Assembly (NCBI RefSeq): GCF_030867145.1
Contig: NC_134434.1
Coordinates: forward strand, 8,866,001-8,930,000
DNA length: 64,000 nt
Direction: 5' to 3'
DNA from: Opisthocomus hoazin
Lineage: Eukaryota; Chordata; Aves; Opisthocomiformes; Opisthocomidae
Below, one piece after another: positions 3,553 to 46,900 of the stretch. Both the position numbers and the translations under genes were made by a program. The notes beneath the pieces are model-generated. The model made no database searches and had not been told where the DNA came from. It saw nothing but the letters and a program-made list of their open reading frames with translations. How positions within the stretch are numbered: position 1 is the stretch's first letter; each line of letters begins with the position of its first letter.

Positions 3553-4569
3553 AACTTTCAACTAGCAAAGTCTCCGAGAATATTTCCCCATTTATATGGT
3601 CAAATATTCTCACCCTCTCGGATAAAAAAGCTGACTATAAATACGCTCTCTCTTCTGACTGATTTTAATTTTAAACTTAGATAATTTAATAACTCTTAAA
3701 ATGATGTTTCTCTCTTTAAATAAAGGGCTATTTAACCACATAAACTGGTTGTGTAAACCATCACACTAGAGACACTTGATACCCTCAAAACACGGGAACA
3801 ACTAGTGATTTTGGTCTTGTTCAGTGCAACGCATTAGGCACAAAACCGGCCTGCAGCCAACACGGTACCTTCCCTCCCTCCCCGGGGGTGCTGGGCCGCT
3901 GCCCGGGCCCCGTCCCGGCTCCCTCCCCGGCGCTGGGGCAGAGGCAGCGGGGCACGACAGCCTCCTCCTTCCCACCACGGCTAGTTTACACGGCTAACGC
4001 AACGGACGTCTGAAGGAAACCCACTGTTCGGGCACAGAGGCATACTAGAAAGAAATACAGACCTATCACACAGAACACCCCAACTGCAACTACGGGTACC
4101 AAATGAGACAAAAGCAGCAGGTTCGGGCGCCTGGCAGTCAGGCACCGAGATGCACCGCCCGGAAGAGCCATGAAATAAAGCCTTTGGCAGCGACCGGACA
4201 CGCGGGTTCCCCGCCCCAGGAAGAAGCCTCCCTCCGGACCTTCCCCAAGCCCTTCCGCCACCCTGCTGTCAGCCACGCTGCACAGACGTTCTTTGGCTAG
4301 AAAGCCAAGATCTCGCAGCCTGTCCCAAGGGCGCCCGAGGCCTACGGACCGCTGGGCAGGAGGCTACGTCTGCACAGGACACGGGACGCACCACCACTGC
4401 TCATACCAATCTGGACACAACAAAACAAAACCGGAGTGATCAGCAGGCCAGTCCTGGGCCAAGTGGAAGGAACCCGGACCCATGTGGGGAGGATTTGTGC
4501 TTTGGGGATTCCAGGCTGGTTTTGTGCCTAATTGCCCTGCACAGACAAGCTCAGGCAAGACTTGCTTCA

Positions 4570-5147
<578 letters not shown>

Positions 5148-5540
5148 AACACGGCAGCCTTGTCAGTCAGGTTCTGGAAGGGAAGGAAGGTCCGGTCAGC
5201 CACGCAGGACGCAGCAGAGCCCGCGACACTCCTGCAGCAGGGCCCAGCAGCAACGCCCCGCACGGCTGCACATCCCACTCCCCCCTGCGCAGGCGAGACT
5301 CGACAGCACCCGACCGAGCGGGACTCACAAGCGGCAGGTTCTGTCCCTGAGCAGAGGCTGCTGCCCTTCCACACCCCTACTCCCATGAAGACTTTGTGGC
5401 AATGCCTTTTTTTTTTTTTTTGCTTGGGGTGGGCGAAATTAAAAAACTAGGAGGAGTCAGAACACACGGAAGCCACATTTTTAAAAATAGCCTGGCAGGC
5501 AGCAGGCTGGGTCCAGAGCACGGCTGCTCCGGGCCAGTCA

Positions 5541-5553
5541 TGCTGACTCAGCA
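5541..5553. promoter_or_regulatory. MAFG: Perfect T-MARE / ARE (TGCTGACTCAGCA) in MAFG intron 1
   Basis: The 13-mer TGCTGACTCAGCA is the full palindromic T-MARE consensus and also contains the ARE core TGACTCAGC on both strands. It lies 368 bp upstream of the acceptor of the ATG exon. This is the sequence small Maf homodimers and NRF2-, BACH1- or p45-Maf heterodimers bind. Induction of mouse mafG by Nrf2 through an ARE has been reported, so an autoregulatory role is plausible; whether the bird site is the orthologous element is inference. Confidence 0.8.
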
Positions 5554-6506
5554 CGCCGGCACTCTGTGCCTCTTGCTCCCAGCCTCATCCTTGTCGCTCC
5601 CCAGCAGAGCAAGGCAGCCAGCCGCTCCGGCGCGCCCTTCCAGCAGGTGCCCAAGCACAGCCCAGAAACTGCCCCAGACAGGAGTCCTGCAAGATTCTAA
5701 GGGCCCCCAAGGAGCCAAACCAGCACAGTTCAAGAGCACGCGACCCTAGGCAAAGAGCACAGGGGAAGCCTTTGCTTCGCTGGGCGCGGTGCGGGAGGGG
5801 AGAATGCCACTGCTGCGCTCATGCCTCTCCAAACTTTTTCTGCTTCCCAGGAAAGCCAGCACATCCAAGTTCACATCAAAGTTCTGTACCCAGCCTTTCC
5901 CAAGGAGCAGAAGGACAACCTGATACTGCAGCACACGGAAGAATTTGGGCACATGGGAATCCCATCACAAATCTGGGACGACGCCTCAGCAGCCTTCACC
6001 TCTCCCAGTCACGCAAAGCTGACCCTGGCTGTAGGTCTCTCCTGTGAGAAAGTCCCTATTAGACCCCGGAAATGCCAGGGCACAGAACCACCCTGCCCCT
6101 CCCTCATCTTCAGAGCCAAGGTATGGTCACAAGAAAACAAAGATCAAGGACAGCCAAAACCAGAGGAGAGCAGACTCCTTTGCTGCCACGGAATACACGA
6201 CATCAGAACTGGTAAGAGCAATTCTCAGGCCTGTTTTTACAGTGAACCATACCCAAGCTCCTGTTTCTGTCCCTACATACGTCCTCCCCTCAGGCTTTAG
6301 TTCAGAGTGCTACTACATTGCCCAATGAATTAATCCGCTCAGATACTGCTTGACAGACATAGCTGCACCTCAGACAGCCAGGAACCGCACACCTCCTTAA
6401 ACGAGGCAAGCGTTCATGTGCACGCGCAGCCTACAAACACCTCTGTGCCTTTCTCCTCTTCGGAGCCAAACAGTCAAGAAAAATGTTGTTGTTGCTACTG
6501 CTTTGC

Positions 6507-6507
<1 letters not shown>

Positions 6508-6533
<26 letters not shown>
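6508..6533 (+). repeat. Poly(A) homopolymer, about 26 bp
   Basis: Uninterrupted A run in MAFG intron 1. No retroposon body is recognised immediately upstream, so it is annotated as a simple repeat only. Confidence 0.9.
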
Positions 6534-6538
<5 letters not shown>

Positions 6539-7737
6539 TGATGCACAGCTGTAGCCAAGAACCAGATGCACAAGTCAGCAAATACAAATCTATGCTCTCC
6601 CAGCAGCTGCACTGCAGGCTCCCCGCAATGCATCTGCCACCTACTAGAGGTGAGCGGGGTCAGCATTCCCCAGGACGCTGGCAGAGACGCTCCCAGAGCC
6701 CCCAGCCTGCCAGGAGGCAGGCTATTTATACCCAGAGGACAATGCTCCTTCCAGCGAGACGTCTGCTACAACCCGGCAGTGCTGGTGCAGAAAGGGTCAC
6801 TTTGTCATCCAAGGAAGGCGGCTGCAATGAAGCAGACTAACACAGGACGGACAGCACACAAGCAACTGCTGCGTAAAATCAGTTCTTCACTCTTTCCCAT
6901 ACCGTTGTAGTTCTTTCCTCTGCTCCTACTGGGCAAACAACACGGCTGCTGGGAAAAGGGGAGCAGGCGGGGAGCAGCTGGGGAGCCCAACAGTGTCCCC
7001 CCCGCAGCACCCCTCTGCGCTGTCCTCCAGTGCGCGCAAGGAGCCGAGGGCAGGGGTGGTCAGCGGACCACAGAAATCGCTTTGCCTCGTGGTGCTACAG
7101 GATTGCCAGCTGCCTGGCAAGCGCTGCAGCTTCCCTCCTCACAGCAGCGCTGCAATAAAACAAACAGGGCAACAAACGTGCTGCATCAGGCAGGGTGCTG
7201 GGAAGGGAGGTCCTGGGGTGGGCTGGGGAATCGGCAGGGTGCTCCCACAGTCCAGACCCCGCAATGTCCCCCGGCCCAAGGGGATCAAAATGGACACGCA
7301 CAAATCAGTCAGTGGAAGGGGAAGAACAACCCAGACACCAGCTGGCCCTCGGTTATGGCTATTTTTTGTGTCCCGTCCGAAGGATCAGAGGCAGGGCTAT
7401 TCGGCAGCTCACAGAGAGGACACCCAGAGAACTGGCACCACGACAGAGACCAAACTTGGCCTAACTCTCAAGACTGCTGATTGCTCAGCTTTTGATAGCT
7501 TCCTGAAGAAAGATTGGGCTGAAAAGCGCCAAATGCGATGACTGCAATGAAGAAAATGCAGCCTCAACACATTTCCCCAGAGCTGAAAAGGCCTGAACTC
7601 AGCACAAGCGCAGCCAATTCTCTCCTCAGCTCAAAGGCAGCGCAAGGGAGCTGACAGCACCGCGCATGATTCAACGCAGGCCCCATTCTCCACATTCCAG
7701 ATCGCAGAACCGTGCCACGAGCCCCGTGTAAACACAG

Positions 7738-7745
7738 TGACGTCA
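7738..7745. promoter_or_regulatory. CRE palindrome TGACGTCA
   Basis: Full CREB/ATF consensus octamer at the start of the CpG-rich region that precedes MAFG. Its CpG has been retained, which suggests an unmethylated or constrained setting. Assignment to MAFG is positional only. Confidence 0.5.
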
Positions 7746-8924
7746 CCCGTTCCAGTGCAGGCCGGCCCAGAGGAGGGAAGGAGAGAGACCCATCTGCGGG
7801 GACAGGGAGGCAGAGGAAGGGGCCGTGCTCCACAACGGCTCCGCAGCAGCCGGCGGACGGAGGAGCGAGGGCGGGTGGCAGCGGCCAGGCACGCCACACG
7901 ACAACTCCCTCTCCCAGCGTGGATTTCACACTCTGTTTATTTGCTTTCTTGCACATCAGCTCACACAGCCCTCCCCGGAACCCACGAGATCGGGTGGCTC
8001 CCCCAGCTACACACAATGCCAGGACAGTGCCTCCCCTGTGCCCCCCCCCGCAGCTCCCGGTGAGCTGGGTGCTGCCCCGGGCACGCTGACAGCAGCTCCC
8101 GCCGCAGAGAACCGGCCGGCCCGCGGGCTGACCCCGCTGGCACAGACACCGGGCAGAACCGGCTCCGGGCAGACAGACCCCCGTGAGCCCCCCCCCCACG
8201 CTCCGTGCCCGCTCAGCTCCCAGGGCCCCGCGGCGCCGAGCCCCGAGCAGACCCAGCGCCCCGGCCCACGCGGGGGCTCCGGCGGGGGGGGAGTCCGCAG
8301 CCCCCCGCGGAACGGGGCCCAGAACCCGGCGGCATCGAGCTGGGGCAGCGGGGAAGCGCGCCCAGCCCACCCGCGGCCGAGCCCCCGCCCCGACCCCAGC
8401 CCCCGGGAGCCGCCGCCCGCCGCCACCGCCCCTGGCGGGAGCGGGGCCCCGCGGGCCGGCCGCGAATCAGGCCGCGGCGGGTGCGGGGGGGTCCGAGGGC
8501 CCGGGCGCGGCGGGGCTGGCGGGGGCCGACCGGGAGGGGCGGGGCGGGGTGCCCGCGCGCGGTCCCGGGAAGCGGCGGGCGGGGCCGGGCCACAGGCTGA
8601 CGGCCCCGCGCACCTGTTGCTCGGCCGCGGGGCGGGTGACGGGGCCGGGCGGCGCCGGAACCCCCACTGCGAGTCGGCGGCGGCCCCCCCGGCCGCCATC
8701 CCGGGCCCGCCGCGCCCGGCCCGCCCCGCCCCTGCCCGCCCCCGGGGACCGGCCCGCCGCCCCGCCCCGCCCGGTGCCAGGGCCGCGCCCGTCTCCCGGG
8801 CCGCGCCCGCCGCCGCCAGCGGCGCTCACCTCCTCACGGGGCCGCCGGGCCGGGCCGGGCGGGGAGGCCGCGCTGGGAGGGACCGGGACGCCGCGAGCCG
8901 CTGCCACCGCCGCTCACGGACGCG

Positions 8925-8949
8925 TCACGTGATGTTTGGGTCACGTGGC
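8925..8949. promoter_or_regulatory. Paired CACGTG E-boxes (TCACGTGA and GTCACGTGG)
   Basis: Two CACGTG cores, at 8926-8931 and 8942-8947, 16 bp (about one and a half helical turns) apart, both in GTCACGTG context. This flank is preferred by USF and by MiT/TFE factors. They lie just upstream of the best candidate MAFG first exon. Confidence 0.55.
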
Positions 8950-9052
8950 TCCATTCATGAAGCGCCCGGTGCAGCCGCCCCGGGCCTTAAGGGGGACGCG
9001 CGTTTCTGTCGGAGGCGGCGCCTTAAAGGGGAGGCGGCGGCGGCAGGCGCGG

Positions 9053-9111
9053 GGCCCCGCCCGGCCCGCGGTGCAGGCCCCGCCCGGCCCGCGGTGCAGG
9101 CCCCGCCCGGG
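9053..9111. repeat. 23 bp GC-box tandem repeat, about 2.6 copies
   Basis: The unit runs 9053-9075, repeats without visible mismatch at 9076-9098 and continues partly to about 9111. Each unit contains CCCCGCCC, an SP/KLF-type GC box, so the array gives a cluster of GC boxes in the MAFG promoter island. Confidence 0.8.
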
Positions 9112-9800
9112 AGCCGCGGCGCTCCCCGGTCCCGGCTCCGCCTGACGGCGCGCGGCAGCTCCCGGCCCGGGCCGAGCCCTGCGGCCGCCGCCCCGCCCAG
9201 CCCCCGGTGCCTCGGCGGCGGGGCGGGTCTCCCGGCACGTCCGGCCGCAGCCTGCGGCCTCCCGCGGCGGCACCGGCGGCCGCAGCAGCTGCCGGGGGTG
9301 GGGTGCGGTGGGCGCCTCCCTCGCGCTCCCACGCGTGTCAGCGGCGCGCGGCGAGGCAGCAGCGAGTGCTCCCCGCCCCTTGCCCGTTCTGAGCCGTCTC
9401 CGGTGCGGAGAGCGCGGCCGCCTCCCGCCGCTCTGCCCCGCCCGCAGCCGGCACTCGCCGGAGCTGCCCAGGCCGCGCGGGGAGCCGCAGGGGTCCGGCG
9501 GCAGCCCCCACCCCCCCGGGCACGGGCGGCAGCGCGGCCCCGAAGCCGGGCTGACCCCCCCGAGGAGCGATGCTGCTTTCCCGGGGGCGTCCCGCCCGCT
9601 CGGCTGAGGGTCCGCACCGCAGCACGGCGGCTGCCGACGGCGCTTACCGAGTGCTGGAAGCAAAGCGGCTCTGACGAGCTGCGCCGCAGCGGACGGGGGG
9701 CACGGGGAAGGCGCAGCGGCGAGCCTGGGCATACGGGGCGAAGGCCACGCCATGGAGCGAGTGCTCCCTAGAAGGGCAGAGCCTGGGCCCGGGGGTCCAG

Positions 9801-10504
9801 CAGCAGCACCGGGCTCTCCGCGGTGCACGCAGCGGACGAGTGAACCGACCCTGGTGGGCTGCGTGTCCCACCGGCTGCGGCAGCAGCTCAGCCGCAGCCC
9901 CGCAAGCACCCAGAGGCTCCCGTACAGCTCTGCCTCTGTGGGGTGCAGCCTGGGGCAGGCCACACGTCTCCCCGTGGAGGGGCCCAGGCGCAGCCATCCT
10001 GCCTTTTATTCCATATCGTGCTATAAAAGCAGGAACTCGTTCACAACGTTTCCCTTTCACTTGGCATCAGCCAGGGCCAAAGCCATCTGACCCACAGCTT
10101 GGCCTGTCTGCACGGGGTTTTCACAGCAGGGGAGCACCCGGCTCCTGCTCGCCTCCCGTGGAATCTCCTACAGAGTGGCAGAACCGCTAGCACGCCCGAA
10201 GGGTTGGGATACTCTGAGAAGGGTTAGCACTCCATGTCCTTCCTGTCAGATTTCAGCCAGACACCCTTCCTTCTTCCGCTCTCTTCGTATCTCCAAACAC
10301 TGGTAGCACGGCCCTAGAACAAGTTTTGTGTTGCTGCTCAGGAACCATGGGCGACAACGAGAAACAGGCCACCACACCCCCCAGTCCCACGCCGAAACCA
10401 GCCTCAGAGACCCCTCGAGCACACTCCCTGCGGGCAGCGAGGACCCCACAGCCACTGCCAGGGGCAAGAGGTACACCCAGCCCACACAGCTGGGATCAGC
10501 CACA
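9801..10504. other. Intergenic interval between MAFG promoter and PYCR1 3' end
   Basis: CpG density falls and no coding exon is recognised. A second minus-strand AATAAA lies at 10005-10010, a possible later PYCR1 end. Nothing else here can be supported. Confidence 0.5.
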
Positions 10505-12879: not shown

Positions 12880-15612
<2,733 letters not shown>

Positions 15613-26171: not shown

Positions 26172-29100
26172 CTAGTTACCACTGCTGAGCATCCCCAGGA
26201 GTTTACTGGGCTCCAGGCCCTGTTGCTGTGCCATTTTCTGAACATCAAAGCCCATGTGCATGAGGAACTGGATCACATTCATCTCCTGCCCTGTGAACTG
26301 GTCCCTGATAGTGGGGCATGAGGGGTTGCAGTGAGGCCATGGACAGCTGTCAATCAGATGAATTGGGCAGCCTTTCAGAGGGGCCTTCCCATTTTTGTTG
26401 CTTTCATGTAGGCTCCGATCCCAACAGTGCAGGGCACGGGGTAATGATGTCCCCTTCACCTGGATGTCTGTCCAGTGACTGAAAAGAGAAACCGTACAGA
26501 TTCTATCAGAGGGGTCAGGCTGTCAGAACTGGTTAATTCCCCTACCGTTTCCCTGTTGACCTTTTGTAGAATCTGCAAAAGCACTCACTTGCGTGTAATG
26601 ATCTCATGAGACAAACAGGCAGGAGCAAAGCTAGCGCTAAAGGAAAAAAGGAAACATGGATTAGGTCTTGGAAGGACAAAGTAACTCCTGCTAAACAGAA
26701 CCTTCTGGACTAGGTACAGAGGGGAATTTTTGCTGCCCCTGGCAATATTTTAAAACCAGCAATGACTACCATCACACAAAACCCAACCGGACTGGAAAGT
26801 ATCCAGAAGAAAGGGGCTCCATCCTGCCTAACTGCACATTAGCAACAAGAGGCTCCTGAATACTTGCTCTTGCATGAAGTAAGGCACATTAACTGTTCCT
26901 CCTCTGTTGTCTCATCAACTCTCTGGATGTTTTATGATCAGTACTTTTCAAAACATCCCTGTGAGGTTAATGGCTGTGCAATGGCAAGGAGTCAGACCTC
27001 ACCTTGGAGGTAGCAAAGAAAAAAACATGATCCTATTGATAACAATGGGTAGCTGATAATTGTGAAGCTGGAAATTACTTTGCACTTATCCAGAAATAAA
27101 AAAGGCAAGATTCTTGACGTAGACTAACTAATAGTTATCGAATTTACAACACTAATTTCTACAGAGATCTGAGAAATGCTGCAAGGATACTGGATATCTC
27201 TTAGAAATAAATGTGCCAAGCTTTCTACAATGAAATACTTACGTCACATCCTTCAAGGTGTTTCTCAGCTCCCTACCCAGATTCTGGATGTAGAGCCACT
27301 GCCCTTCCTGAACAGGCTGGCCAGTGAGGTGTACATTGTCTACTGTAAGCTGGGCCTCATCAAAGAGCCACTGGACAACAAAGACTGGACCTAGGAAGAC
27401 AAAAAATTTGGAAAAGGAATTGCTCTAACTTAGCTGTGATTACAGAGGAAGCTCTGTATACATATATACACACCTATATGTAATACATTTTATATCTCTC
27501 CTCTGATACTTACATCGAAGAGTGGGGTAAATTTTGTATCCAAAAAAGCAATTCCACTCCTCTCCCTCTTTAAACTGCAGCTTACAGCGTTCAGGAACAA
27601 TACCATTCCAATACCTAGAAGACAAAGCGATATTAGAACGAAAGTCATAGCGCAATGTTAGCAACAGCCTTTCCATATCCTGGTCTGTTTCTGTTCTGAT
27701 TACAGTTCCAACTTATTGACAGCAGATTCTTTCTTAGCTTCATTGTCCCACCAACAAATTTTAGAGCATCTACAATCACAGGCATTCTTTTGCAGGTCTA
27801 GATTTTAAATTATTTTCTTTTCCAAGACAGTAATTGAAAAAACAGTGACATAGATGATAAATACTCTTTAAGTATCAAAATGAAGGAAGACAGAGAGGGA
27901 GGACATCTTCTCCACACACTAACCTCTTATAAAAGTGTACTTTAGAGCATCTGCTTGTACCTTATTCCTCTTTTGATGGCTTCTGTTGGAGCACATGTTA
28001 TGGTATCAATACAGTCAGTTCTGCGGTACTGTTTATTATCCAGGAACCATCCAGAGTCTGCCAAGCCTCGAACCTGAATCCCTTGATAACCCATCTCCTC
28101 CAGCTGCTCGGCCACTCGATCCACATTCAGCAGCACTCCTGTCCCTCCAGCACTGCAACGGCAATGTTAATACTTCAGTCATGCAGCACACACAGCTATT
28201 AAACGACTGGCTGGCATACGCATCCTCACAGCAGTGACACTCTACAAACGACTCCATCTATCCACAGGACAATCCACTACTAACCTGGTAGTCACCAAGT
28301 TATTTCCTTGATGTACAAAACACTCAGAAATAAAGCCAGTGCTGAGTAACAATCTGGTACCTCAGAAACCAAATCTCGTTCCTGTTTGTTCTTCTGGGTG
28401 ATATACATGCTTTGTCTCATTTGCAAGGGGTTCAGCTGTTCAAAACCCAAAAGAATCTGAAGTGAGACAAATTCACCCTTTGCAACTTCTGTATTACACC
28501 CCTGTGCAACATATGCTGAGTGTACCATAGCCTTCCGCAACACTGCACGATTCTGAGCACCTGCATCAGGCAAGTCTGATTTTTTAATTCAGATGTCCCA
28601 AATCAACCCATAAGAGACATGAATCTCATGGTGTGGGCCAACAGGAGCCAGCATTCTTGATGCAGAGAAGAATGAACACATTCCCTCCCTCTTGCAAAGC
28701 TTTCACCTTGCTGTTATTTTCTGCATTTTCTCGTAAGTGTACCTGGACCAAAAGCTGAGGAAATAATACTGAATCGTCCCCTATGGTACCACTCAAAGGA
28801 AAAAACTGAGAAGAGATAGAGGGTCTGCTGCGTTAGTACTCCTAGAAGAAATTTTTGAGGAGCTGCCGAGACCTCCTCCCTAACAGCTTTCTACTGGGAA
28901 ACCTCCTGTCTTCACCACAGGAAATCTTGTCGATACCCACCTGCTCCCTGCCAGCAGCAACACTTTGGCAGTGCCAAGACCTTTTCCCACCAGCTCCTTT
29001 ACAACCTCCTGAATGATCAGCGCTCCCATGAAGGCATATTCATCTGGAAGAGACAGCTCAGTATCAACAAAACTGTTTCCTGTCCAGGCTAAGACTTTTG

Positions 29101-32100
29101 CTTGCTCTCCACAAGGGATTGTGAACCTAAAACCAGGCCCATTTTCTCCACCCGTATTGAGCACATCTAACAAGAGCTACCCCCTGTTCCCCCTCCCCGC
29201 ACAAAACTTGCTTCCCTGAAAGAAAGCGAAGAGAGAGTGAACAGAATACACAATAACACAAGCTCACCTTCCTACAACAGTGCTTAGTAGCCGGTAAAGT
29301 TGGAGAGGGAAAACAAGAGCAAACCAGGAAGGCGCTGGGACCCTTTCTCTATACACGAGCAATACGCACACCTTCCTACCCCCTGGAATCTCAGTTCCAA
29401 CTAACTGCATCCCTTTTTTTCCCAGTTCAGACAAGCAATGTTTCGAAAAACGCTATACCTACATATATCGCTACTTTCTCGGCACCACCAGCAGGCAGTC
29501 ACGTTTGCTGAAGTGTAACTGCTTCATAGGAACAACTGTAAGAAGCTATGACGAAGAGAAAAGGTCCCTTACTGTGACAAAAAGTGTATCTGTTGTACCC
29601 ATGAGTGGTCAGTTTCTCAGCGTAAGAGTTAGTGTAAAAAGACAGTGACACAATGTTTGGTTTCAGGCCAGAACTCACAGACGAACTCAGAGAAAAGCAC
29701 TGACCTTCTGCCTTTTCAGTGCCACATGACAGAGCATCTTAGGCACAATTCTTTCGTTCACAGCAGCGTATACCAACAGCAACTCCATTCTGGTCAAAGA
29801 AAACTCTTCATGAACAAACGAGGCGAGAACTAAGCCCCTGGTGTTTCTGTAGACATTACTGTACCCAAACACCAATCCTGCTGAAGTTGGGAAACCCAGA
29901 GAAGTACACTATGTAGAACAACTCGTTTGCATGAAACCTAGGTTAATCTGGAAGAGGACTCCTTTAAGCAGACTCCCACAGTTCCATCATCAAAATGACA
30001 GCCGATGGCAACGCATGTGTTAAGATGAACTATCCTTCGTTTCCCAAAGAAACCTGCAGACAGCTTTAGCCTAACACACGAGGGCTCCTTTCAAATGCCA
30101 GATACTCTCCTGATTGAAGTCTGAAACTGAATTCACTGCTCTTGCCTCTCAGATCAGCAAAACCAAAGTCGCATGCAACAAACTCTGGTTCCTCAGCTAC
30201 ACCATTTAATTTGCAGTGTGCTGGAACCTGGAGATTCATCTAAAAAGAATTTCGTTTCTCTAATCCTTGCATACTGTATCATTGTAACAACTCCACAAGC
30301 AGTGGCTCTGAATTATGTCAAAACAGCCTGAGCTAAAGAGATCAGGATGTTTTATCTGGAAGTAGACTGATATTCTTTCCTGCCCTTCAGCAAGAAATAG
30401 CCTGTTCTTCATTCGCGTAATTTCACAGAAGTCTGGCCATATCCTTTAATGCGCAATGTCTGGGGCAGCAACAGCCCATCAGCAACACTCACTTTTCTCA
30501 GACTTGGACGAGGCACCACTCCAAACATCACTTGAGCAATAAGGGATGAATCTGTAAGAGAGACTTGTGTGAGTACCAATGTTCCTTTGACATGCGAGGA
30601 GGGGTGAGGACAGGGTCAAGTAACCGGAAGAAAATTAAACCCCGGGGAGGGGAAAAGGGAAGTTTCTTGTCCAGTTAGACAACATACCTTCTTGCACACC
30701 AAGCCAGAATTATAACTGTCTTGAATTTTCTCCTGAATACTGAGTTAAATCAATAAATAATGTGTCTTTTATCAAGATAATTGAAGCACTGAGCTCAGTG
30801 GACAGAACCATGGGCCAAGATTTTGCTCTTAGCTGTCCCACTGATATGGTGGATGGCCTGCCACAGGGAAACTGTCTGTGCTTCAGTTTTTCACAGGAAA
30901 ACTGAAAATACCTTCTCAATCCAGTGTCAACGCTGACTGCAACCACTGGAGGTTTTTGCAGGACTGAAGTTCTCTTCCCATTTTTGTCTCTGGCTTGCAG
31001 AATGCAAATAACATCCCCTCTCTTCTGGCTTTCCCTCCTATACGCTAGATGCTAGGCACCTAGCACACGTAAACGGGTGTCTTTCTCATTCCTCTGAACT
31101 AGAAGAGCTCCTCCACATCCCTCAAACTGGCACATGTGTAACATACTATCAGCCCACCCCTCACAGCAGTATTTGCCACTTCAGTTACTGGAGAAGGCTC
31201 TCCAAGCTATGTCCCCAGTTTTTCTTCATTGGATCACCCCACAACTCCAAGCACACTGGACTTCAGTTTCTCCAGACCTTGCCAGCAGTACTTGTTAGAG
31301 CGCTGTACTAGAGTAAATGAGGACACACACACTTCCCTCCTGCGTGCGTTAGTCTTACATCTGTCTTTGTAGCGTTCTTGCTAGCCTACAAGGCAGGAGA
31401 TGCTGTTTAAGGACAAACCCATTTCCCTCCGCTGTCCCTCCTTACACCATGTTTGCATTCCACCAGTGGGGGTTTTCTTCTGGCTGTGACGACAGGATCC
31501 CGGTTCCTGCAGATGGGCACAAAGAAACAAGACATGTACAGACAGCAGTCCGTGCCTCCAGAGAAACCCTGTGAGCCTCACGCAGGATCTCTGACCACGC
31601 AGAAAACAAACATCCACGATGAAAACCATCGGCAAGGGAAGCGGAAGGAATGCTTCTACATTTGCCCTTAGGCAGTTGTGACTCTCAGAATTTGATCCGT
31701 ACGGAGATGAAGTCCCTCTAGGAGCCTCTGGCAGTACAAAGAACCTGTGACACCTGCTTAAAACTAAGCGCTTCCCAGGCGTCCCCGCAGGTGCACTCCA
31801 GGACAGGCAGCCCCGGGTCTGTGCCAGCGACAGAGGCCTGGGCGCGCAGCGAGTCGGAGCATGAGCAGCGAGAACGGGGAGAGACACTCAACACCCCGCG
31901 CTGTGCGGGGAGCCCCGCGGGCCGGGGCGCGGGTACCTGGGCGCTGGCTCTGCCTCCCGCACAGCCCCGACAGACGCTGCTTCCCACAGAGCAGCCCTGT
32001 GGCCAGGTCAGCGGGGTGCGGGGGCAGGACCGGGACCCCAGGGCTCCGGCGAGAGCGCAGGCAGCGGACCCCGCTACGGCTGTGGGCACGGGGCTCCCAC

Positions 32101-43900: not shown

Positions 43901-46900
43901 AGCAGATCACAATCTGCAGTCCTGCAAGGACTGGTAGGAGCCGAGGCAGATGACAAACGTACTCCTCCAAGGAAATCACAGTCGATTGCTGGAGTGTGTA
44001 GTGTCTATTTTTTCTCATCTCTCGCTCGCTCTTCCCCTCATGCTCACACACACACTCTCTCACAGCGAGAGAGAGGATGCCCTGAGATTGTTGGTAGGGA
44101 CACATGAAAACACAGAATGAAAGAAAGCTTCTGCTCGTGTCCTAGGCTTATGTCCTTCTCAGACTTCTGAATAAGGCCAGTTTCTGTGGACTTCAGAAAA
44201 CTGTACCTGACTAGAGACACTAGGTGCTATCTCATAGGGACTTTTTTTTCTTTGCATTTCTTTAGACATGTGAGCTAAGTGGGAAAACTTAGGAGTTAGA
44301 CATTTTGAAAAAGAAGGCTCAATATTCTCTAAAATGTAAAGATAACACCTGAAGTGCACTGCCATTTCCCATCTCTTGGTCGGCTGCTAGATTTGTTCCC
44401 TTGGGACCATCAGGAGTTTGAAGTTCTTCAGGACTGTCCTCAGTGTGTTCATTTTAGAAATGCCTTGGATTTTTTTTTTTTTTAATGGCAGCAGTGCTCT
44501 GAAGAATGTGAAGGATCTGCATGAGCCCCTGCTAATGAATGTGAATGTTCACATCCCAGGTTGGAAAAGGCCTGTTAGAATAGACAGCTAGCTGTCCTTT
44601 GGCTTTTTCTGCAGGTGTTTAAGAGCTTACTAACTGAATGTCCAGAATTATTTTTGTGATTTTTGATTAATTTACTCTTAAATTGTATGTCAATATTTTG
44701 TGGTTAGGAAGCCTTAGTGAATTGCAAATTACATATATCTCTTTGGACTGATGATAGTTGTATGTTCTTCAGTAACTCAAAGATAGATTTGGGCTGTGTT
44801 CGTTGTTTCTCTGTGTGGATGTACAAGTATACTGTTTGTTCTGCCTCAGTGAAGTTCCGCAAATCAGTGCTTAAATCGACAGCTCTGCGTTGGTGTTTTG
44901 GTTTATGCAGCTGCATCAGTCCTGGCTGGGTTATTGGAATTCATCTTGTATAGCTGTGAAGACCCTTGCTGTAAAGTTTCAGCTAGTGTAAAGCAGAACA
45001 TATCAATTGCTTGTGGTGACATGTTATTTGGGACGCTTGCATTGGCTTTTGAATATGTTTCGGTTCAGGATATGGCAGGGAAGAGGAGCCCAAGGAAGCT
45101 GGTTAATATTCAAGGATTTCAGCCCCTACAACTCTGTGATTCCGTGATCATCTCCTCCACGCTCAAGAGCAGTCCATTCCAACGAATAGGAAGTCAGGCG
45201 AAAGTGCCAGTGTGTCTGAATGGATGAACAAGGAGCTCCTGACCAAACTCAAACACAACATGGAAGGGTACAGAGAGCGAAAGCAAGGGTGGGTAACCTG
45301 GGAGGAATAGAGAGATCTTGTCCGAGCACCTGGGGATGAAATTAGGAAAGCTTAAGACCAACTAGAATTGCGTCTGGTCAGGGACGTCAAAGACAGTAAG
45401 AGCAGCTTCTTTAGGTACCTAGATGACAAAAGGAAGGCTAGGGAAAATGTGGGCCCATTGCTCAACAAGACAGAGGCCTTGGTTACATAGGACAGGGGAA
45501 AGGCTGAATGCCTTCTTTGCCCCAGTCTTAGTACCAAAGTCCCAGAGACCAGGGGGAACGGCTGGAGCAAGGAAGATGTCCTAAGTGGAAGAGGATCAGG
45601 TCAGGGAATACTTCAGCAAACTGAACATGTGTAAGTCTATCCTGATGGGATGCACCCGTGAGTGTTGGGGGAGCTGGCAGATGTGACCGCAAGTCTATGC
45701 TTGATAGTCTTTGATTGATCATGGTGATTAGGAGAAGTGCCTGAAGACCGGAAGAAAGCAAATGTCACTCCTGCCTTCAAGAAGGGCAAGAAGGAGGACA
45801 CAGAGAACTACAGGTGGGTCAGCCTCACCTTGATCCCTGGGAAGGTAATGGAGCACCTAATCCTGGAAACCATTTCCAGGCACGTGAACAACAGGAAAAT
45901 CCTCAGGAGTAGCCAGCATGGATTCAAGAAGACGCACTCATGCTTGACCAACTTGATAAGCTTCTGTGATAAAATGACTAGCCTGGTACATGAGAGGAGA
46001 GCAGTGGATATTGTCTAACTGGACTTCAGTAGGGCCTTTGACACTGTCTCTCACAGGATCCTCATACATAATACTCATGTTCATAGCAGAATAGAACTAT
46101 TCTAAATATTAACTTCTGAAATAATAATTTGAATACTCTGCATTTTTAACTGATGTAATTCTTTGCAGCAAGTGTTTAGAAGGAAGTGATGTTTTTTTGG
46201 ATGGCAGGTTCTAGAGATCATTGAAATATTGAAAAAATTTGTTGTGAAGAAAAAAAAGTTTTCATTGAATTTTCAGATTAATTCAGTGTGTTTTTCCTGT
46301 AGGTTCGGGTTGCATTACAATTGGATGATGGCTCCCGTTTACAAGACACCTTTCTCTGTCGACAGACTTTGTGGGAACTTCTCAACCATTTTGCAAAGAT
46401 CAGGTGAGCAGTGCAGTGAGAAAATACTTGTTTGGATGGATCTCTCTATGCCAGTAGCTAGCTGTTGTTACCGTGACCCAGCTAAATCCTGAAGATTTGT
46501 AGAATTTGCATTTATTTTGCTGTGTTTTTTTCCTTTACAACACAGACATTTGCCTTTTCCTTGCTCTTTCAGATTTGACACTTCGTAGTTTTGTTACTAT
46601 TTTTCAGTTCTGGAGTAGCACTCCTGGTTCAGGGCATAAACTGGTAAGAGACTGATAAGGCTGGGAAGAAACTATACATGGATATATTGCTGCACCTGTC
46701 TTTTACACAGACTTGTTTGAAGTCAAGTTACTGCCGGAGTTGAGGTGGTAGCCTACATTATCTTGATCACTAGTATTTCTGTGCTGTGGTTCCATGTGAT
46801 GGAGAGGCTTTTTAAGTGAGTTGCTGTTGCTCTTTAGGCTTACTGTTTTGTGAGTTCTTCAAGGAAATTTGGAGCTCTCAGCAGGCTAATGTGGAATCTT

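Follow-up and report, generated by a model that had tools for sequence, protein, structure and literature searches.

A perfect palindromic T-MARE just upstream of the MAFG coding exons of Opisthocomus hoazin and its probable role in MAFG feedback

Introduction

Small-Maf homodimers are repressors, and the abundance of small Maf proteins helps to decide between activation and repression of ARE genes. Activation of mouse mafG by NRF2 via an ARE is the reported finding of Katsuoka and colleagues (2005), and for mammals a loop leading from NRF2 to MAFG has already been published. The mouse element has in common with the arrangement proposed below that it belongs to a small-Maf gene which NRF2 reportedly activates by way of an ARE. 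The human MAFG ARE, TCACGCTGACTCAGCACATTG, is listed in Table 3 of PMC6949066 as overlapping NRF2 ChIP-seq signal in A549 and is credited in that table to Hayes and McMahon 2009. The authors of PMC6949066 refer to promoter regions for their AREs, and in the portions of the literature covered by our search no location of the mammalian ARE within the MAFG gene was found.

On CsMBE DNA, the consensus of which needs A or G before TGA, KD values of 0.53 nM for Nrf2-MafG and 0.69 nM for the MafG homodimer are given in the relevant sections of PMC9756947, where the two dimers are described as competing for this DNA and Jun-Fos as binding it approximately 200-fold more weakly than MafG dimers. According to the same sections, the affinity of Nrf2-MafG on MAREs is lower than that of the small-Maf homodimer. 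The 13-bp T-MARE palindrome, as quoted in PMC5613631 and PMC6623464, comprises all 13 positions of TGCTGACTCAGCA.

Results and Discussion

The stretch of O. hoazin DNA analysed here, 64 kb in length and referred to as the window, was subjected to a motif scan, which returned a single perfect T-MARE, the palindrome TGCTGACTCAGCA at 5541-5553 (no strand assigned). It agrees with the consensus TGCTGASTCAGCA in 13 of 13 positions and, as judged from its letters, is identical to the known element throughout. The definition TGCTGA(C/G)TCAGCA, with both GC boxes, describes the site completely, and full TGC/GCA boxes are present on both half-sites. An earlier note on this DNA had claimed that all 13 T-MARE positions are present; this was read directly from the sequence and holds for the sole perfect copy in the 64 kb. 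When up to two mismatches to the T-MARE were allowed, two matches were obtained in the window against 2.5 expected, and since near-matches occur at the expected level, it is the perfect copy alone that is unusual. No other T-MARE-like site with a score of at least 11/13 was found at 4500-10000. The loose ARE core TGACNNNGC is also contained in the site but is uninformative, as its 28 occurrences in the window lie below the 34 expected and thus indicate no enrichment. The CsMBE/ARE core TGASTCAGC is present as well, but the strict CsMBE pattern [A/G]TGA[G/C]...GC is absent, C rather than A or G preceding TGA on both strands. Compared with the MARE consensus as PMC9756947 writes it in the section concerned, with outer A/T (AGCTGASTCAGCT), the site scores 11/13. 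A C-type MARE with three mismatches at 6567-6580 was set aside, such matches being common.

The TGACTCA core present in the site could in principle serve as a TRE and thereby make of it an AP-1 (Jun/Fos) site, and control of the MAFG promoter by AP-1 is reported in a passage of a review (PMC9903618). A full GC box on each side is nevertheless a Maf feature, and the approximately 200-fold tighter binding of core-containing DNA by MafG dimers than by Jun-Fos, a ratio measured on CsMBE (PMC9756947), points the same way, so that an AP-1 site is considered highly improbable.

The limits of the MAFG exons were set using splice-site consensus in combination with protein match rather than transcripts. 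MAFG runs on the minus strand, and its first coding exon was placed at 5112-5173, with 26 nt of 5'UTR, the ATG at 5147-5145, an acceptor at 5174/5173 and a donor at 5112/5111, and the last coding exon including the stop codon at 4570-5022, with a translation running from VKREPGEN to KTDARS and containing a bZIP_Maf domain (Pfam, E = 5.8e-32). The predicted MAFG protein was compared with the MafG chain of PDB 3a5t, to which it is identical in 102 of 104 residues (DNA-binding region), and Maf-dimer binding at the site is predicted from this conserved region together with published work. Measured from the acceptor inferred for the first coding exon, the T-MARE is located 367 nt upstream. Further upstream on the gene strand (minus), a CpG island at approximately 8000-9900 probably acts as the main promoter of MAFG and would include a first non-coding exon, the end of which was put at 8838 on the basis of a donor-like CCC|GTGAGG; the far end of the intron is a guess within the island. 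If transcription starts in the CpG island, the T-MARE is intronic. The bZIP_Maf match, the identity to 3a5t and the distance of 367 nt together bear out the earlier placement of the motif just upstream of the MAFG coding exons.

Chance expectations were calculated for the intron and for the genome. Between 0.0003 and 0.0008 perfect T-MAREs are expected in the MAFG intron (Markov order 1-3, 5174-8837), and a density-based estimate (233 copies per 1.482 Gb) yields 0.0005 over 5174-8300 (3.1 kb of intron) and 0.01 per window, values to be read in the light of a 64-kb scan that could have turned up many other motif-and-gene pairs. Genome-wide, the 233 perfect T-MAREs observed amount to 1.3-1.8 times the 126-178 expected from the composition of a 200-kb sample taken from contigs C1 and C2, while models trained on the GC-richer window expect 147-275. 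This excess being so small, a perfect match alone is no proof of function; many, perhaps most, perfect T-MAREs in the genome may have arisen by chance, and what is notable about the copy at 5541-5553 is its host gene, MAFG, and not its perfection. The comparison of 233 with 126-178 also provides a useful base rate for other claims that rest on a perfect T-MARE.

These figures bear on the reading that the palindrome has no role and was noticed only for lying in MAFG. A genomic copy number little above the composition expectation is consistent with it, as are the solitary position of the site at 4500-10000 and a CpG observed/expected ratio of just 0.43-0.52 around it, in DNA that forms no CpG island. 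The very small expectation within the intron argues against chance, as does the human MAFG gene, listed with a near-identical sequence under NRF2 ChIP-seq signal in the table of PMC6949066, and we regard a chance origin as distinctly unlikely. The likelihoods assigned to the preferred explanation and to the rival ones are overlapping quantities whose total is not one, the chance reading alone excluding the others. No sign of a repeat origin emerged when the 400 bases around the site were compared by blastn (1e-5) with the surroundings of 40 other T-MAREs, none of which matched.

The human 21-mer, as listed in PMC6949066, was placed on the window, and the best position was 5538-5558 on the plus strand (TCATGCTGACTCAGCACGCCG), with 17 of 21 positions identical to the published MAFG ARE and a next best place of 14/21. 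Within the 13-mer the two sequences agree in 12 of 13 positions, the outer T of the window being C in human; one box of the human ARE is CGC, so that its palindrome is imperfect, whereas that of the window is perfect. The two elements, which belong to the same gene, share GC on both sides, TCA before the 13-mer and C after it. Outside the 13-mer, five of the eight flank positions match the listed human sequence. A control set of 40 further perfect T-MAREs, namely the first 40 among 50 listed out of 233 in the genome, contains two that match as well or better, for which reason the flank match was rejected as a proof of orthology. TCA and C together flank none of these 40 controls, while C alone was found in 10. 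That the window site is orthologous to the human MAFG ARE, at the same inherited position, is plausible from the sequence comparison. Among the seven human NRF2 AREs of Table 3 in PMC6949066, GC occurs on both sides in that of MAFG alone, the T-MARE score is 12/13 for MAFG and 8-10 for the other six, and the strict CsMBE pattern is absent from two, MAFG and TXN. As the human site is already a 12/13 T-MARE, the window site is one base nearer to the palindrome and no more.

Mouse mafG has several first exons. A speculative alternative promoter and first exon can be drawn at 5329-5492 on the minus strand, in the interval from the MARE to the first coding exon, using a TATA/MEF2-like CTATTTTTAA at 5481-5490, which on the gene strand follows the MARE at a distance of 50 bp, and a donor-like CTT|GTGAGT that would set the exon end at 5329. 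The site would then be a proximal element of this exon, an arrangement suggested by the TATA/MEF2-like element and by the occurrence of one GTGAGT donor where 0.16 GTRAGT are expected (5174-5540). However, this short stretch was chosen after GTGAGT was seen, and over 5174-9900 the single GTRAGT falls below the 1.5 expected; in addition, the T ahead of the donor is unusual and the site has no CpG island. The arrangement is therefore unlikely, and the alternative promoter is offered only as a lead.

The sequence feature is real and is probably a functional element. We consider it likely that the site is the O. hoazin counterpart of the known NRF2/small-Maf ARE/MARE of MAFG and that it is used in MAFG feedback, a reading that draws on the 13/13 match and the expectation of 0.0003-0.0008 in the intron, on the human MAFG ARE listed under NRF2 ChIP-seq signal, its 17/21 identity and the combination of shared flanks seen in none of the 40 controls, and on the 102/104 identity of MafG and the competing sub-nanomolar dimers described in PMC9756947. 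In resting cells the site would be held mainly by small-Maf homodimers and by BACH1-small Maf (MafG dimers without an activation domain), and this occupancy would hold back transcription of MAFG; when oxidative or electrophile stress sets in, NRF2-MafG would take the place of these dimers and MAFG would be raised. We infer the occupancy of the site in O. hoazin, the dimer concerned, the promoter acted on and the shared ancestral position. The suggestion of the earlier note that MAFG may carry its own feedback site thus stands as the most likely reading, in view of the near-identical human sequence listed under NRF2 signal, but what it adds is limited, since the loop is already published in mammals and the site is only one base closer to the palindrome.

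A different division of labour was also weighed, in which the site is a dedicated silencer bound by the small-Maf homodimer (or BACH1), serving mainly for negative autoregulation of MAFG while NRF2 acts elsewhere. The full TGC/GCA boxes on both half-sites, the absence on both strands of the CsMBE A/G before TGA and the weaker binding of Nrf2-MafG than of the homodimer on MAREs, as stated in PMC9756947, are all in keeping with such a silencer. Against it stands the human site, where TGA is likewise preceded by C and which PMC6949066 nonetheless lists under NRF2 ChIP-seq signal, and we think a dedicated silencer rather unlikely.

With the site taken as the counterpart of the known MAFG element, its perfect palindrome more probably acts as a brake subject to override by NRF2 than merely as a stronger activator. 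This assessment follows from the GC boxes on both sides, the lack of A/G before TGA and the edge of the homodimer at MAREs described in PMC9756947; small-Maf homodimers, perhaps together with BACH1-small Maf, would have the advantage at rest, and NRF2-MafG would take over under stress. The earlier proposal that a perfect palindrome would be a strong form of NRF2 activation is accordingly at odds with the lower affinity of Nrf2-MafG for MAREs in that source. The palindrome should strengthen the brake, although the human site is listed as NRF2-bound (PMC6949066) in spite of the C before TGA that it shares with the window site, and although the MARE shown in PMC9756947 has other outer bases (AGC...GCT), which makes it uncertain how much MafG gains from the outer T. 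It is put forward tentatively, as a view with the balance somewhat against it, that the MAFG element is of the MARE class and not of the CsMBE class, so that a built-in brake favoured by the homodimer would set the level of MAFG and would be one base stronger than in human. If the MAFG palindrome is conserved, the small-Maf set-point would be coded in the gene itself.

MAFG is accompanied on the same strand by coding stretches that we take, on the basis of motifs, to be SIRT7-like (~685), PYCR-like (14288-15586) and NOTUM-like (32318). A search of prokaryote and virus contig collections returned no relatives of MAFG, as is expected of such collections, and tRNA and Rfam scans of the 64-kb window found nothing. 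Several minor features were recorded during the analysis. A perfect 23-bp GC-rich tandem repeat of 2.5 copies is present at 9053-9110, within the MAFG CpG island. The sequence AGCTGAGTCAGCT, a perfect palindrome of the alternative MARE AGCTGA(G/C)TCAGCT given in PMC9756947, occurs on C21, the contig that contains the window, at ~8936246, outside the window and ~65 kb from the MAFG site. At 28883-29176 on the minus strand, a pectinacetylesterase-like stretch (Pfam PAE, E = 1.5e-5, under the curated cut-off) fits a NOTUM exon, and at 45728-46015 on the plus strand, a reverse-transcriptase fragment (Pfam RVT_1, E = 7.1e-5, likewise under the curated cut-off) is probably an old LINE remnant.
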